Shown piece after piece: positions 46,250 through 64,000 of a DNA stretch of 64,000 nt; position 1 is the first letter of the stretch, and each line of letters opens with the position of its first letter. Position numbers and translations under genes: made by a program. The DNA comes from Pagrus major (taxonomy: Eukaryota > Chordata > Actinopteri > Spariformes > Sparidae), in contig NC_133215.1 of the NCBI RefSeq assembly GCF_040436345.1, positions 25,583,806 to 25,647,805 on the forward strand, in the 5' to 3' direction. Under the pieces are notes generated by a model. It was not told the origin of the DNA. It saw nothing but the letters and a program-made list of their open reading frames with translations, and ran no database searches.

Positions 46250-49067
46250 TTAAGATCGTGGGAGGACCTGAGCGATGGTGTCCCGTGCACTCTGGCTGAG
46301 TCTTTCTGGGAACTTGACCTCATACTCCACTAGTAGGTCACCTCGACGATCGGGGCGTTTGGGGTAAGGCAGCCCCTCGCCGCTGATGCGTCGCTTCATA
46401 CCTGGCTGCACGATTTCTGTTGTTGACACGGTCACTGTTTTGCCTTCCAGGGTGGGCACGTTGACTGTGCAGCCACACAAGGCCTGATGGGACAGAAGGG
46501 AATATAAAAGGGGAACAAAAATCATAAATAAAGATCATGACAAGACACTAATAGGAACAAAATTCCACCTTTTTTCAGCAGATAACAATTGTTTGGGTTT
46601 GTTTTCAAGCACTTTTGTGAGGAAAAAAAGTGACAAAAAAGTTTTAAGTAATCTTAACTTACATCTCTGAGTGAGATCCTAGCCGGGTAAACGATGTCTG
46701 AGCCGTCACGCTTGAATACTGAATGAGGCTTGTCCTTCAACACAAAAACCACGTCAGCTGGAATGTTTGTGGGAGTCTGGTCCCCCTCTTTGGGAAACGT
46801 GATTTTTGTGCCCTCTTTCCACCCCTTCTTTATCTGCACCTCCAGGATTTTGTCTTCTGCCCGTATCGATCGCCCATCGGGGTTCAGTCGTTTACGAGAG
46901 ATCTTCATTCTCTTTGTACAACCTGACAGAACTTCCTCCAGGGTCACCTGAAGATCGTGAACCACAGGAGGGTCCTGCTGCTTCTTTACAACGCTACTGT
47001 GACTGCCCAGTCCACCCATACCAGAGCTGAATGAGCGAGGGAACCCACCCATTCCGGGGCCCCCCATCCCAAAGCGAGTGAAAGGGTCATTAGTGTCCAT
47101 TTCCTCATCCATGCCGCATCCATTGCGGGCACCAAAGAACTGTCCAAAGGGGTTACGTCCACCGAAGAACTCTTCAAAGATGGCATGAGGGTCACCCTGG
47201 AAGGTATAGCTGAAGGTGCCAGGTCCACCACCACCACCACCACCTGAGGGGCCTCCGCCTTTCAGACCTGAGTGACAGAAACATTTAGTTAGCTAATAGA
47301 TTTATCACTAAAAAAGGATATGTGTGGTATATTCCTTTTCTGTGCTGTTTTGAGAGATAAGTGTCATTGATAAGGGAGAAACATGGTGCCATTACAGGCA
47401 TGAGCCAACTAAATTTAGCTTAGAAGGGCAACAGCAAAACCGTTCATATAACAACTGACGACACAAGCAGCAGAGTTTACTGTAAGTTGCTCTTTAAATT
47501 AATCTACATAGTAAAATATAAATGCCAAAAAAGTCCCTCCGTGTTATTATCATATTGTAGATCTATTACAAATTCAGTATGGGGTCAATCTAAGGCTGGG
47601 TAATGGCCTGAAAAATAATATTGCAATATTTTTTAGGCGTTATTGCGATACACAACATATAGCTTAATATTTGCTGCACCTGGGGAGAGCTAAACATGTC
47701 GTCGCCGGTGTGGACATCTTTAACAGTTTCAGAGGAAGACAACGCGACTGACCGCAATTTGCAATACATGTTCGGCAAAGGTTCAGAGAGGAGGGAAAAA
47801 GTCCAATAGTTTTAACACTACAAATCTTATCAGCTAAAGCAATATTAAATCGCCTATTTTTGCTCGCTACATCTTATCCTTCCTTACCCTCAGGTGTGTA
47901 TGAACTACAGGTTAGGAAACTTCTTTAAACAATACAAAAATTGTAAAATGACCCGTTAAGTTATCTGTTATCTGTATCGGCTGGGGAAAAAAAATCCATA
48001 TTGTGCATCCCTGTAGAAAAGTATTGTCATGTGCAAAATGAACTGCAGCAAAATTACCTATTTTAAAAAGGGAAACAGGCCCCGAGACCTTCAACTCCAC
48101 TGTGTACAGACACCACCATAAAAAATGTGGCACAAACCTACAAAATTCTCCAGCAGCAACTCTTGCGGTTTCTATTAAGCTGTCTAGCTGTGTAGAAATG
48201 TTCTCAGCCAAGACACAAACACGATTATTGTACTGAAAGGACACATGCTTTGCTCTTTTCTGTATTACCACATCTGGCACCATATTGGAGAGCGTTAAAA
48301 TCTCATGTGTAGTAACACTTCTTACATTCTTCACATGAAGTCATGAAGTGAGCTTTGACTTTAGTTACCATGCTTACCAAACATCTGAGAATAGTAAGTA
48401 TAAATTGTGTGAGTACATGTCTGTGTCCCTGCCCAGCTGTCAGGTTGCCATGCGCCAGAGTCAACAGTGACTTCAGTGACGACACCCCTCAAACATCCGC
48501 ACGCTGTACGCTCAGCCCCGCCCCCTGCTGACGTCACACGGAGTCTTCACACTCCCCCTCCTGAACTCAGGTGAACACGTTTTCACGTTGGGGATTGTCT
48601 GTGACTTCTTGTAGAAACATGTCATGTGAGTTTCCCTGTCAGCAAAGCCTCGCCTGTCGTGGCCCAGCAAAGGAGCCGCGAGTAAAGGGCAGAGCCGAGG
48701 GGAGCTGGGAGCGCCATGACACCCGGGATAACATTAACGTCCTCTTCGGTGTAGCGCATGTTGACATGTCACCTCCACACAGTCATGTCGTGAAGCCACA
48801 CTGGCAGCTCTCTCCTAATTACCTGCACTGTTGAACGATTCATGTGACAACCTTACCTTCTTCGCCGTAACGGTCGTATATATCCTTTTTCTTTGGGTCG
48901 CTCAAAACGTCGTAAGCTTCAGCGATTTCTTTAAATTTCTCTTCGGCGTCCGGTGCTTTGTTTTTGTCGGGGTGATAGCGCAGCGCCTGCTTCCGATAAG
49001 CTTTCTTTATATCGTCCTCCGACGCTCCTCTCTTAATTCCCAAAATGTCGTAGTAGTCTTTGCCCAT
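46250..49067 (-). CDS. dnajb1: DnaJ homolog B1 (HSP40), complete
   Basis: Co-chaperone that delivers clients to HSP70 and stimulates its ATPase; cytosol/nucleus. 349 aa in three coding exons: 49067-48857, 47267-46663, 46483-46250. The ATG at 49067 is chosen because [11 protein letters not shown] is the conserved start; the in-frame TTG at 49076 is not needed. J domain residues 1-70 with HPD at 32-34. A Gly/Phe-rich linker ([14 protein letters not shown], then [11 protein letters not shown]) runs to about 150. C-terminal client-binding domains include KKMKIS-like [33 protein letters not shown] and [13 protein letters not shown]. Ends QVLPRS, slightly longer than the 340-aa human protein. Intron positions match the human gene. 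Promoter has HSE and TATA. It is divergent to tecr, as in human. Confidence 0.96.
47268..48856 (-). other. dnajb1 intron 1
   Basis: 1.6 kb with no exon. About 47585-47700 and 47985-48015 carry debris of a repeat with 'gggtaatggcctgaaaaataa'/'tattgcgatac'. The segment nearest exon 1 (48480-48840) is CpG-rich. Confidence 0.5.
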
Positions 49068-51312: not shown

Positions 51313-54300
51313 ATGAAGCACTACGAGGTAAGTAGTGTCTAGGAAACTCTACACCGTCAATGAGGCGCGTTACGGGACTAGAATACAATTAATGAATCCA
51401 GTGTGGATTTTTTCTGTGATTTCTACAAGAGTAAACTCCACCAGAACAGTCACATTTAAAGCTTTAAACGTTAGCATTGAGGTACGCATGCTGCTGCAAC
51501 ATCGCCTGCCATGGGCTGGTTTCTGTGACCGGGGATTTGTGGCCTCTCATGCACGGATATGAACGCTAGTACCGGCTAATGTCGTACCTTAAAGTCAGGC
51601 TACACCTACATTTATGACGAGTTATACCTGCGTTGTGCATTTGTTAGGTCTTGAGGAAAAGCTACACGTCTCCAAGCTAAACACAAAGCCCTCTGTGTAG
51701 GATAATAGCGGGTATCATCGCCATCTCTGGCTGGAAAGAGTCATGGCGCTTCTTATCTTGTTATTACCCAATAATGCAGGTGAACAGCCAAGTGAGCAAT
51801 CTATGGCAGGCGTTTTAACATTGAACAGAACCACAGTCCAATCTGTAATTACGTGTCAGATATCCATAATACAATGTCTCCTAGGTAATGTTGTATTCCC
51901 ACTAGTCAGAATGGTAATAAAAGATATCCATAATAATATTCTTGCTGGTAGAAATGTGAATTCAAGATGTAGGAAATGTAAAAATCCTTCAAAAGTATAC
52001 GTGGCCACTTTAACATTTTAAAGCTAGACTGGATATATTCTGCAGATATCTATAATTCAATACTTCCTAGTCATAAAGAACATTTCAGTGATCCAGAATC
52101 ACAATCAAAGTCATAAAATAAGTCAGACTCTAAGTTGTCAGGAGAGACTTGCTTAGATTTAGGATGGAAAATGTGATTACTGTCTCAGAAACATCCAGGC
52201 TTGACTTAACGCAGACGCCTGTTTTATCATTAATGTGAAACATATCCTACGCTGCAGCCATTGAACTCCTGTGAGTACTGACAGCCTCGAAAACTTAACA
52301 GAGTTCCTTGAGCGCCAAAACTCATCAGACAGGATTTGAAGCAGTCTGACAGAAACTGATCCAGCCAGTGGCTGCTCCGGTTCCCCTTCATTCACTTGAC
52401 AGATGCGGCTTTTGCAACCTACAAGGGGCAAAACAACATTTATATAATGAAAAATGCATTAATGAAAACACAGCTAAGTTGATCATTATTCTCATAGATC
52501 TAAAGATTTTTGAAGTGGTGAATATGTGCTAAACTGTTAAGGTATGCATGCAATTTATCATTCGGTGGTTGCACTGGTGTCAGCATTCATTTGCACTGGC
52601 CAATGTGTCAGTCATACGCCACTCCTGCGACCCCTAATCTATCTGCTCACCTTTTCATGGCCATCTTCGGTTATCAACTTTTGAACTCAGTTACTCATGG
52701 CCATGCCCTTGACTGCATTTGAATACCAAAAGCCTACACATTGGTAGTGTGTATGAATTAGGCATGGGACGATATGAAAATTTCATATCACGATTATGCT
52801 GTTCAACATAATTGTGATTCACAGTATTATTTTTGATAATCATCAGCATTTTCTTAAAACTTTAAAATAAAAGCTAAATTTGCACTAAGACAAACTGGAA
52901 TCACTTTACCTTACATTTTGTTAAGAAACAAATATTTTTACTGCATCACAGATTGGATGCATCTTTTTTTTGTGAAAAACAATTAAAGAATCTTAAATAA
53001 GTTATAAATCTTCGGCACAAATGAAGGATAAATAAATGGTATTTACCTCATCTGCCTAATGTCTTTTAGTTTAGTATCCATAGTATCCGATTTAACTTGT
53101 TTTTGTGAGGGATACAATGTTCAAGTCATGCCTTTAGCCATGGTGACAGACCTTTGAGTGTTTTTAATTGTGATTCGCGATAAAATCTTTTATCGCACCA
53201 TCCCTAGTATGAAGCTACAGTGTGATAATCACGGCTATGATTTGTCCACATGTCACTAGTGTACCCAGTATTACACCACGACTCCTAAGAGTCTGTGAAA
53301 GTCCAAAAAATCAAAGGTTATCCACATATTGGTTGATTGTATGGTCTCTACAGACAGACCAACACCAATGGCTGCTATTCTCTCTGCTATTACAACTTTA
53401 ATTAAACAATCATAATTTGCAAACATTACTCAGTAATGATAAAGTTTATTTATATAGCACTTTTCTGAACACAAAACAGAAAATAGAGCCAGACAAGGCA
53501 GATAATATGAGAATTACTGACATGAACTGTAAAGTCAATACAACATGTGGGCGTGGTACAAACTGGTTGCAACACACCCAGGTTAGAGGTTTTTGCGTAT
53601 GTGGCCAGAAAAACTGAATAAACAGCAAATAAACCAGCATTGTTAAAGCTTTAGCTGTAACAGGTATGCCGACTGTAGTCACTGCTGGGTGTGGACTATG
53701 ACTGACATGGTCACCAGAGCACATGTTTAAAGATGAACGCTCACACCAGTGCTCTTTGAAGAATGCATCAAAAATTAACTCAGTGTTTTTATTTTATCAA
53801 ATCAAGTGTAAAATTTAGGTTCATGGATTCAATAATAATGATTTATATTCTTCCTTTATGTAAATTGCCTCCATTATAGAGACAACAAACACATCTAAGG
53901 CTAAACTGTAAAGAGAAATATTTAAATAAAGTATTTAAATATTACACTGTTCACAATATCTTGTATCATTAATGAAAGATTAAATGTTTCCCCACTAGAC
54001 CAGTTTAATCATAGTTTCATTGTATTTACACCAGGTAGCACCAGAGAGCTGCAACACTTTCACAGTGATCTGTCTTGCTTACACACCAACCAGTAGCTCG
54101 CACTTTGTTTTAAAATACTTACGGAGAAAAGACACTTCCAGATTGTCTGTTAATCTGTCTAAACAATTAATCCTACCAGATTTAAAAAAACAGCTTCTTA
54201 CCTTGGGATAGGAGGTCCAGGCAACACCAGCAAAACAGGCAAAGTCTCCACATGAGCAGTTAAAGCGTATTTCTCTCTGCTTCACCCTCACCCTCAGAGT

Positions 54301-57300
54301 GCATTACCAGCACAGACTGTCACTGCCAGCCAGAGGCTTTATATAGATGAGATGGGGGAGGTACAGTGGCAGTGGGTATGCCTGGCACACGGAAAACTGA
54401 GATGGGGTTATTTCTCCGAAGTCTCAACTGCAGTGTCAGGTGTCATGCTTCATTTAGGCATACTTGAATGTTTCATTTGTACTGTAATGAGGTAGCTACG
54501 TGGATGGATTCAAAAAAGCACTGATTGAAGTCTTAGAAAGACAAGCTGCCTTTTTCTTCAGTTTTCATGCCACAGTCTGAGGAACAATCTCGGTTTCTTT
54601 TAAAATTAAATAATTTATTTCAAAACACTACTGATGTAAAGAACACATGAGCATTTTTATTTAAAGGTGTTATGTTCTTTTGTCCCCACAACATTTCTTT
54701 GTTGGCTTTTATCAAACAGTTGCTGCCTTTCCAAACAGAAATAATCCAGAAACCAAATAATCAAAGTACAGTAAAGTACACAAAAAGTCCGGTCAAGATG
54801 CAGTTTTTGTAAGGACAAATGGAATACATTGAAAAATGGTGCAAGGCTCATTTTCCTGCTTTGTTGCCATTGTCCTGAAAGCCCAACTCTTAAATGTGCT
54901 CTGTGGAGATTCTCTGTTGTTTTATAAGATGGTCGTTAATTTATTTCAGTGGACTTCATCTCTAAACTAAAGTTAGCTACTGTTGCTTTCTGTTAGCAGA
55001 GCAGTAAATCTGACCCAAGTCCTTCACAAAGATATCCACAATCCAGCAGCATTAAACAACTTAAACAAATTGTCCACAAGCAACCAAGAGAGACAGGGAA
55101 GCTATCATTTCACGTCATGTTACAATCCTCTCATGTATGGGCAATGAAAAATGATGTATACATGTTTTGCTACAAACTGTTACATAGAGCCCCTTTAACT
55201 CACTCTATTTATAAAAATAATGTACCATAATGTCCCTTTTTTTGAAAGTGAGAAGAAGCTGGGCCTTCAAGGTTACGAAACCATGACATTTTAAACCACA
55301 GTTAATAATGAAATCAGTTCATTATGAGCGCCACTATTGCCGTTTTTCCACTAGCACTGGCCGTGCTGAATCAAACTAAGCTGCGCTGATTTGCTTTGGA
55401 ATCAAGGGTAACCTGTTACACAACCGAAAATGTTTCATACCAATTAGGGCTGGGCATTATATCTGTATTGTATTGTTATAGTGGTATGAGACTGTATTGT
55501 CTTAGATTTTGGATATTGTTATATCTTGTATGACATAATTGTTGTCTTTTCCTGGTTTGAAAGGCTGCATTACTGAACCTACTAGACTGCTCTACTTCTT
55601 CTAATTCTTGCCTTTACCCACTCAGTCATTATATCCACATTACTGCTGATTATTTATCAAATATTGCGTTGTGTTAATATTTTGTGAAAGTATCAACGGT
55701 CATCCCTACAATATATTTCGCAACATGGATATTGACGTATTTGGCAAAAATATCATGATATTTGATTTTAAACTTTTGAGGAAATTTCAAAATATGGAAA
55801 TATAGCCTAAAAAAATCACAATATTATTTATTGTCTTATTAAGACCATTTTGCCTTTCACCCCTGATACCAATACTGTGTTCATTATATTCATGCACTGA
55901 AGTACATAAATAGAATACATCTCCATCCTAAACTTCCATGTTACCACTTGTGACTGTATGTCTTTCATTCATTGCGGAAACTGTATCTCGTCTGTTGGTC
56001 ATTAGAGTCTGGAGGGGTGGGGGTTGGCTTCAGCAAAGGGAATGCCCCAACTAATCCCTCACAGTCTGGAGTATTATCACCCCTTGGAGGCAGGAGAGGG
56101 AGTCTCCCAATGTGAGTGACTGGGAGATCAGGCTGTTGAGTTTGGTTTGGAGTGGGCTGGTTACAGAGTTAGAAGTAGACGTTTATATTTAGCTGGTGAG
56201 AGGAAGAAAGGGCGTTAAACAAGGAAAGGGGCGGTGCCGTTTGTCAGAATACCTCTCGTCCATCTTGCCACTTACCCAGGGGATGAGAGGGGGTCATCAG
56301 GTGTCCATTTTTTGGGAGGGGGAGTTATGTTTCAAAACCAAGTTGGCGCAGCTCTGAAATACAGCTTCGGCCTTCTGCTCTAGAAGGTTCCCTCATGAGA
56401 TCTACACCGATGATATACTGTAGACGGTCTGCCAGGGGGATACCAGGCATTCCTGTGTATGCAACTGTGCACACACATGTGGCACAAATGTCGGCGCTCC
56501 AGGGGTCGACTGGCAGTTAAATAAAGCAGCGCACCACCAGTGAACGAATGAGAATGAGAGGGGCAAAGAGGGAGGGAGAGTGAGAGAATGACAGAGAGGA
56601 AGAAGAGGGAGGAGCAGGGGAGAGACAGATTTATTTCCACAGCTGAGTGCTGCCCCTCTCTATGGTTTGGTGTGGATCTTGGATAGGCAGTTGAGAAGAG
56701 TGACAAGAAGAGGGCAATAAAGTGAGTGCAGGAGGAGGACTGTGGACATGGACACTCTAGCGCTAGAGGCCACTGGCAGTAAAAAGGCGGCTAATGGGGC
56801 GGTGGCAGCGGCCCCGTTAGTGCCAGCTCAAGTGCCGGTCAAACGCAAACCTGCTAAAAAAGCTAAAAAGGCTGTTGTTTTCTTTGAGGTGGAGATACTG
56901 GATGCCAAGACCAAGGACAAGCTCTGCTTCCTGGACAAGGTAAGAACTTATTCAATCAGTATTTAAATATGCTTTTCTAACCTCAGCTTTGCAAAAAAGT
57001 CTTCTCCAATACTGTTTATGTATGTTTGATTTCCTTGTGCCTTTGTTGTTTGTCTGCCTGTTTACTAAATGCAGGTGCTAAGCGCAGCATGTCTGGTCCT
57101 GTGGTGTTTGTGTATGTGAGTCAGACGTTTTCTAGAACATTGTTGAGCTGCTGTAGCCCTCGCTGTCAGTCAGTGGCTGTGTGACAGCCAGTCTAAATGC
57201 ACACTGGAGCCCCTTTTATACATGCAGGGGAAAAAAGGCTGTAATGTTGGAGTTGTTTGGGTCAAATGCTTATACTGGACATCCTCCTCACATCATGAAC

Positions 57301-62751: not shown

Positions 62752-64000
62752 CATGTCCCTCCACTTTATTTATTGTGCTGTTATTTGTAGGTCGAGCCAA
62801 ATGCCACCATCGGGGAGATCAAGTCTATGTTCCACAAGAGCCGTGAGTGCCACCTCTCTACAGGCGACTATAGCCTCATAAACCTGATTTAAGATTGAGC
62901 AAATCTTCAAGCCACACACAGAAATGCTCACTTTACACCCCGTCTTTAGATGTGTATGAAGCATTTATCTGTGTGTTTCAGATCCTCAGTGGTACCCAGC
63001 AAGACAGTCCATTCGTCTCGACCCCAGTAAGTCAGCCAAAGTGTGATCTATCGGTATACTTAAAAGGGGCACTATGTAGTTTTGGAGAAGAAATTCAAAC
63101 TCATAATTTTAATATTTCCAATATTAATGAGGTAATAATACAAACTATATAAGTTTGTATCCATAAGTGAATAAACAAGCTGTTCTCAGAGGAAAACAAG
63201 GTCCCCAGAACACTTTTTGAAGCTAGAAACAAAGTAAAACAGTATGAAACTGTGTTGTCCTTTAAGGTCAGTTTGTTTATTCAGTCATGAAAACAAAGAG
63301 TTTGTTTATTTAGTTTGTTTAGGCATAAAGAATCAGTCAATGAAGATCTTTCTCCTCTGATTAACATTTCTTCCCCAAAACTACATAGGGCACCTTTAAA
63401 GTAAATGTCGTACTACTTCTCTTTGCAATTATAATTTACTCATTAAGTAAACGATGTGTGTGTCTCAGAGGGGAAGTCTCTGAAGGACGAGGATGTTCTG
63501 CAGCATCTGCCTGTGGGAACCACAGCAACCTTCTACTTCAGAGACCTGGGAGCCCAGATCAGCTGGGTCACAGTGAGTACAACAGAAAGCAGAGCAAACA
63601 CGGGAACACTTTGTGCTGTCGCAGTCAGGTCCAACAGTCCTGACAAGCCCATATTCATCTGAATGCGAGTGGGTTTAAGCAGAACTATATTGAGATTTCC
63701 CGCTGGGTAAAAAGGGAGTGTGTGTGTCAGAAGTTTCCCTGTGACCCTGAGGTTAATTTGCTCTGGTGGAGTTCACTGTTAATGTTAAGGTTGTGTTGGC
63801 TCTGCTGGGATTTGGAAGAGGGGCAGGTAGACGAAAGACAGAGCAAGCATAGAGGAGATTGTGTATTTTTTCTTTCTAACACATCTCCAAGCCAATATAT
63901 CAATAATACCACTATATGGATTAACTGAGTCTCCAAGGCTCTGACTTATCATGTCTTTTCTTTCTTTTCTTTCAGGTGTTTCTGACAGAGTACACTGGCC
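51313..64000 (+). CDS. tecr: Very-long-chain enoyl-CoA reductase, 5' part
   Basis: ER membrane enzyme for the last step of the fatty-acid elongation cycle (trans-2,3-enoyl-CoA to saturated acyl-CoA, NADPH) and sphingosine degradation. Coding exons: 1a 51313-51327 (MKHYE); 2 56889-56939; 3 62791-62842; 4 62982-63026; 5 63469-63572; 6 from 63976, cut by the window end. The joined product MKHYE + VEILDAKTKDKLCFLDK, then HPQWYPARQSIRLDPKGKSL, SWVT and VFLTEYTG, follows human TECR closely. This is the N-terminal ubiquitin-like part up to the first membrane region; the catalytic steroid-reductase-like domain lies beyond the edge. An alternative first exon (56748-56939) is listed separately. All junctions have GT-AG and consistent phases. 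Confidence 0.95.
52759..53206. mobile_element. hAT-type MITE
   Basis: Left taggcatgggacgata and right (complement) tagggatggtgcgata; flanks gtatgaat and gtatgaag are a 7/8-matching 8-bp duplication. Internal text is AT-rich and non-coding. Confidence 0.78.
54937..55150. repeat. Dispersed repeat, copy 1 in tecr
   Basis: Matches 59035-59300 in the same orientation (ccttcacaaagatatccaca versus ccttcacaaagaaatccaca; catgtatgggcaat versus acatatgggcaat). Confidence 0.65.
56480..56747 (+). promoter_or_regulatory. Second tecr promoter (exon 1b), putative
   Basis: Region directly upstream of the alternative ATG. An AT-rich gttaaataaag (about 56516-56526) could serve as a TATA- or MEF2-like element; E-boxes cacatgtg (about 56474) and cagctg (about 56641) are near. 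None is decisive. Confidence 0.4.
56748..56939 (+). CDS. tecr: tecr alternative first exon 1b
   Basis: An ATG at 56748 (gacATGg context; the in-frame GTG at 56742 is not needed) opens a frame that runs straight into tecr exon 2 without an intron. It adds 47 residues: MDTLALEATGSKKAANGAVA, then a basic stretch PVKRKPAKKAKKAVVFFE, replacing MKHYE. The bases coding for VVFFE (gttgttttctttgag) are at the same time the polypyrimidine tract and AG acceptor used by exon 1a transcripts. The frame ends at the normal donor (aag then gtaaga). Family knowledge: TECR-like proteins such as TECRL also carry an N-terminal extension before ...FE-IEILDA. Tissue and function of this form are not visible. Confidence 0.82.
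59035..59300. repeat. Dispersed repeat, copy 2 in tecr
   Basis: Second copy of the segment at 54937-55150, preceded here by 'gggggcgctgtgaaacttct'. Confidence 0.6.
59398..59760 (-). repeat. Poly(A)-ended retroelement-like sequence
   Basis: Starts with a t-run on plus (an a-tail on minus) followed by unique-looking sequence with no open frame; a-rich and c-rich low complexity at about 59508-59566. It fits the 3' end of a retroelement, but the family is not recognised. Confidence 0.35.
61795..62046. mobile_element. MITE, inverted copy of the 32419 family
   Basis: Contains the complement of the 32419-32757 text (agagggtaggatcacagcgt, then tcagaaactgtgg) and ends ttctacattatgttgctttaa. Left boundary approximate. 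Confidence 0.6.
62692..62748. repeat. (GT)n microsatellite
   Basis: About 28 uninterrupted gt units, ending 42 bases before the acceptor of tecr exon 3. Confidence 0.95.
63062..63401. mobile_element. TTAA MITE copy in tecr intron 4
   Basis: Begins ttaaaaggggcactatgtag and ends with ctacatagggcacctttaa, its inverted partner. Same family as 24401-24773 in opposite orientation. Confidence 0.78.

Follow-up and report, generated by a model that had tools for sequence, protein, structure and literature searches.

Can the end of an intron also serve as coding sequence for a second form of the same protein? The question is raised by a tecr gene in a stretch of 64,000 nucleotides of Pagrus major DNA (the window), which is part of a chromosome-size contig. 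The genome searched has 786 megabases in 25 contigs. Exon 1a of this gene encodes five residues, MKHYE, and exon 2 opens with VEILDAKT at position 56889. Directly before exon 2, and in the same frame, lies an open frame with an ATG of its own, here called exon 1b. The gene lies on the + strand and dnajb1 on the - strand, the two being arranged head to head with a gap of about 2.2 kb. Two copies of tecr are compared below under the names tecra and tecrb, which we take to be the right ones, tecrb being the copy in the window. The features of the window are collected in Table 1.

Table 1. Features of the tecrb locus, in positions of the window
Feature	Positions	Strand	Basis
dnajb1 (copy beside tecrb)	46256..49067	-	tblastn with its own joined exons
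tecr exon 1a, coding part, MKHYE, then donor gtaagt	51313..51327	+	strict motif match, letters checked
In-frame stop TAA bounding the exon 1b frame upstream	56718..56720	+	letters checked
Exon 1b coding extension, predicted, 47 residues, running straight into exon 2	56748..56888	+	open frame, homology to tecra extension
Two CTAA branch-point-like motifs, in codons for AKKAKK (56854-56857, 56863-56866)	56854..56866	+	letters checked
Polypyrimidine tract and GAG acceptor, exon 1a to exon 2, within KAVVFFE in the long form	56869..56888	+	acceptor score
Exon 2, VEILDAKTKDKLCFLDK, common to both forms, start of the ubiquitin-like domain, donor gtaaga	56889..56939	+	Pfam TECR_N
tecr exon 3 (VEPNATIGEIKSMFHKS plus one base), donor gtgagt	62791..62842	+	exon matches, letters checked
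Further tecr exons	starts near 62982 and 63469	+	exon matches

A strict search of the window's + strand for the exon 1a motif, ATGAAGCACTACGAG followed by GTAAGT, gave this one match. MKHYE is joined directly to VEI in PDB chain 2dzj_A (2DZJ), which is labelled Synaptic glycoprotein SC2 and reads MKHYEVEILDAKTREKLCFLDK; we take this chain to be the human protein. The 90-residue N-terminus of the short form, joined and typed by us, matched PF21696 (Pfam TECR_N) with an E-value of 5.8e-40, and the 64-residue long exon alone reached 24.5 bits, where the cut-off is 27, covering the first 19 of the 77 positions. The gene shares with TECR (SC2/GPSN2), the very-long-chain enoyl-CoA reductase, the short form MKHYE-VEILDAKT of 2DZJ and the TECR_N domain; it differs from it by a second predicted start, which puts 47 residues in the place of MKHYE. 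The AG at 56887-56888 is the only one in the window that yields MKHYE-VEI, and its tract is the DNA for AVVFFE. Since the MKHYE-VEI junction needs this AG, the overlap of splice signal and coding sequence follows from the sequence, provided that the short form is made as in 2DZJ.

Exon 1b had been placed at 56748..56939 in a sequence-only reading, and when the ATG, the frame and the donor were read again from the letters, both the coordinates and the translation proved right. The ATG is the first in the exon 2 frame after the TAA, and each of the nine ATGs within 400 bases upstream of it is out of frame. From it the frame reads MDTLALEATGSKKAANGAVAAAPLVPAQVPVKRKPAKKAKKAVVFFE, then the residues of exon 2 and the donor, with 64 codons ending at 56939. 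The extension takes up the 47 codons (141 bases) before VEI, MDTLALEA...KRKPAKKAKKAVVFFE, and its replacement of MKHYE amounts to a net gain of 42 residues. It is basic, rich in lysine and alanine, and stands N-terminal to the ubiquitin-like domain. Under the start-codon context rule, the context of the ATG is the same in tecrb and in tecra exon 1b (a purine at -3 and G at +4). A predicted open frame of 47 codons is by itself weak evidence of coding.

When this genome was searched at the DNA level, exon 1b of tecra came up on another contig, where it reads MDVLALEAKSVNGADAEKKSAPRPKPKPPKKAKRIVYFE then VEIVDLKTKEKLLLLDK and the donor. The tecra extension has 39 residues (MDVLALEA...PKKAKRIVYFE), and both copies begin MDxLALEA. 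Comparison of the extensions alone gave a local score of 75 between tecrb and tecra, and none of 20000 shuffles scored as high (mean 27, maximum 64). Identical residues were found in 23 of the 39 aligned extension codons, with 8 tecrb codons left unpaired; in the exon 2 part common to both forms 12 of 17 residues are identical. The two copies differ at 44 bases of the aligned codons, and 20000 random placements of these differences kept a mean of 13.8 residues and never more than 21, a comparison which is biased towards residue identity because the alignment had been optimised on the protein. By codon position 1, 2 and 3 the differences number 9, 14 and 21, and at least 21 third-position differences occurred in 184 of 20000 random placements on this same alignment.

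A tblastx comparison of the two starts gave an E-value of 1.3e-8 in the coding frame, together with ten weaker matches under 1e-3, of which four lie in other frames of exon 2 and six outside it. These off-frame matches show that the tblastx statistics are lax on this composition, and the shuffles were therefore preferred. Upstream of the two exon 1b ATGs, blastn gave chance-level matches alone (best E 0.23). No relatives of the extension were found in collections of viral and prokaryote contigs, as expected for a vertebrate gene, and a PDB search up to E 10 gave one match, SC2, to the shared part only. The claim of a 47-residue (141-base) extension thus holds, as the frame goes beyond chance and tecra has a homologous extension.

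The same comparison bears on whether the frame is still in use. If tecrb made the short form alone, its exon 1b frame would be a remnant of an older long form now supplied by tecra, and the CpG-poor surroundings of exon 1b are what such a remnant would show; but a dead frame this old should have decayed, and in tecrb the 47-codon frame, the start context and the basic motif are intact, with a residue identity to tecra that beats all 20000 random placements. We regard a remnant as improbable.

The other exon could not be recognised in the duplicate. Motif patterns found no MKHYE-like exon before the exon 1b ATG of tecra, over the whole 2.9 kb that separates it from dnajb1, and a loose scan for such an exon before tecra gave a best score of 6, where a perfect match scores 30; tecra may have a diverged exon 1a. 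Matches to tecra exons cover residues 3 to 308 of the enzyme probe, as separate exon matches with the coding sequence unassembled. A steroid-dehydrogenase-like membrane body is a further feature of TECR, and the tecrb exons in the window reach to about residue 90. Tecra seems to make the long form only, which would make exon 1b its working start. Because tecra encodes a homologous extension and is without a recognisable MKHYE exon, exon 1b is very probably a real and old coding start, and the same homology supports the earlier claim that the intron end of tecrb doubles as coding sequence.

The tblastn search which placed dnajb1 in the window also found a second dnajb1 on another contig, head to head with tecra. 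Since both copies stand head to head with dnajb1, tecra and tecrb are taken as duplicates of one ancestral pair, the shared neighbourhood being judged on this one neighbour gene, and the duplication can probably be traced to the teleost fish genome duplication. A homologous extension in tecra and a dnajb1 beside both copies point to an alternative first exon that would predate the gene duplication.

Acceptors were scored with a table of approximate frequencies, and the scores are accordingly rough. The reference set comprised 26 acceptors placed in tecra, tecrb, both dnajb1 copies and a third member of the family described below (the C19 gene), whose last-exon acceptor could not be placed and is omitted. 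The set first had 29 rows, of which three, being second AGs at the same exon start, were dropped by judgement. The tecrb acceptor scored 5.07, with 2 of the 26 lower, and the equivalent site of tecra scored 1.21, with none lower; with all 29 rows, four fall below the tecrb site and none below the tecra site. AGs in the neighbouring introns reached 5.07 in 59 of 708 cases and 1.21 in 235. The low score of tecrb is due to the G at -3, the rarest base at this position of acceptors; with C at -3 the site would score 11.39, a level reached by 3 of the 26. This G is fixed by the glutamate codon GAG, as CAG is glutamine and TAG is a stop.

Of the 512 ways to encode KAVVFFE synonymously with a final G, 7.2% reach the score of tecrb, and for the matching stretch of tecra the share is 33% of 576. 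CTAA is a branch-point motif, and the two copies of it in tecrb, at -35 and -26 from the acceptor, are possibly used as branch point; no CTAA occurs within 45 bases upstream of the tecra site. A low score and missing CTAA motifs in tecra would fit relaxation after loss of exon 1a, as far as one gene pair and rough scores can tell. The sequence-only reading had expected the dual use to constrain every base. A weaker form of this stands, given the rank of the tecrb tract among its synonymous encodings, the two CTAA motifs and the much lower tecra site; 'every base' goes beyond what one gene pair supports.

Other candidate signals near the two sites were rejected. The TTTAC at -11 in tecra is too close to the AG for a branch point, and the AGs before 56863 and 56871 are unlikely acceptors (scores -3.71 and -6.53).

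It may also be asked whether tecrb makes the long form alone, with exon 1a or its acceptor out of use. An acceptor as weak as this one, with its G at -3, would agree with that, but exon 1a, with its GTAAGT donor, is intact and lies in CpG-richer sequence, and tecrb, unlike tecra, has tract codons and CTAA motifs that favour splicing, so that this alternative appears very improbable.

Two promoters are predicted for tecrb. The observed/expected ratio of CpG is 0.74 around exon 1a, 0.43 around exon 1b and 0.42 in the whole window, which would fit a broadly used start at exon 1a and a restricted one at exon 1b. At tecra exon 1b the ratio (0.52 vs 0.53 in the surroundings) is uninformative on a promoter.

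Some 220 bases before the ATG of exon 1b, at 56517-56525, a TATA-like stretch, TTAAATAAA, was spotted by eye. The presumed 5' leader of this exon also contains an acceptor-like AG before 56643 (TTTATTTCCACAG), with a score of 5.68, which could indicate an upstream untranslated exon.

The long form might accordingly begin in a separate upstream untranslated exon that is spliced to exon 1b at, for example, the acceptor that ends at 56642; it could then share the upstream promoter and differ from the short form by the choice of acceptor alone. The AG before 56643 scores slightly above the exon 2 acceptor, as this arrangement would have it, but its score falls within the range of intron AGs and nothing here is decisive. 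We consider such an upstream exon unlikely; were it present, the conclusion on coding would stand and the two-promoter part would fall.

The order of events is suggested by the C19 gene, the third TECR-family gene found in this genome, which is on the minus strand and is presumably tecrl2. Its exon 2 starts at the same position, exactly before VKVLDAKT, with a plain CAG acceptor (ttcttcag, score 10.23); the intron position is therefore probably older than its coding use. A candidate first exon of C19 encodes MSRPTFFE and ends in GAG before a gtaagt donor, as exon 1a of tecrb also ends in GAG. It was the single pass of the first-exon filter in the 12 kb upstream of C19, and in the window, with both strands counted, the same filter gave six passes, two of them the tecrb exons, so that the candidate is suggestive only. 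A parallel had been drawn with an extended N-terminus of TECRL; C19, with its ordinary CAG acceptor at this place and its short candidate first exon, does not bear it out. TECRL itself was compared by length alone, as the longer family member, with 363 aa in the accessible text of PMC5167130 vs 308 in that of PMC7949109, where TECR constructs extend up to residue 308.

In its sequence anatomy, the tecrb exon 1b/2 combines its own open start with an acceptor usable from upstream, and on these features it is classed here as a hybrid first/internal exon, a known exon kind. Such exons are first in some transcripts and internal in others, and are numerous in human according to PMC10256964, which cites Fiszbein 2022. 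Unlike these, tecrb has a conserved coding part before the acceptor, so that codons overlap with the tract and acceptor and possibly with the branch point, and tecr has a duplicate that is seemingly without the splicing use. The accessible text of PMC4831019 has TECR among the altered splicing events in myotonic dystrophy heart, with the event unspecified. Open-access papers were searched for TECR isoforms, promoters or these peptides, and no account of the long form was found among the papers listed; annotation databases may already list it as a predicted isoform. The word Tecr was not found in the main text of PMC7498265.

The reading that we prefer is that tecrb has two alternative first exons, a stretch with dual use as acceptor and coding sequence, and a long form older than the duplication; we put its probability at about 0.8. 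From the CpG-richer upstream start, exon 1a would be spliced to exon 2 at the AG of 56887-56888, to give the usual very-long-chain enoyl-CoA reductase. In transcripts from a second start, CpG-poor and located before 56748, the dual-use stretch would stay unspliced and be translated, and the ubiquitin-like domain of this long form would carry the 47-residue extension, which is basic, probably disordered and cytosolic. Exon 1b/2 would then open the long-form transcript and be internal in the short-form one. The extension is predicted to act as a flexible cytosolic tail, which is expected to alter interactions or localisation. The intron end probably became coding before tecra and tecrb diverged, and tecra would later have lost exon 1a and retained the long form only.

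A further step is offered tentatively, and we would not bet on it at even odds: after capture of the intron end, the need for the glutamate may have locked the acceptor as GAG and so held splicing from the upstream promoter weak. Duplication may then have freed tecra, in which exon 1a was lost and the tract and branch-point motifs decayed, with tecrb still paying for both uses.

On the preferred reading, tecr would be a compact test case for the conflict between splicing signals and protein code. Tecra and tecrb would form a natural experiment, with one copy on double duty and the other apparently without it, and the cost of the overlap would therefore be measurable by comparing tecra with tecrb, across fishes, for synonymous change in the final 12 codons of exon 1b. 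For the biology of the family, the locus suggests a longer version, with a basic extension, of an enzyme of fatty-acid elongation.
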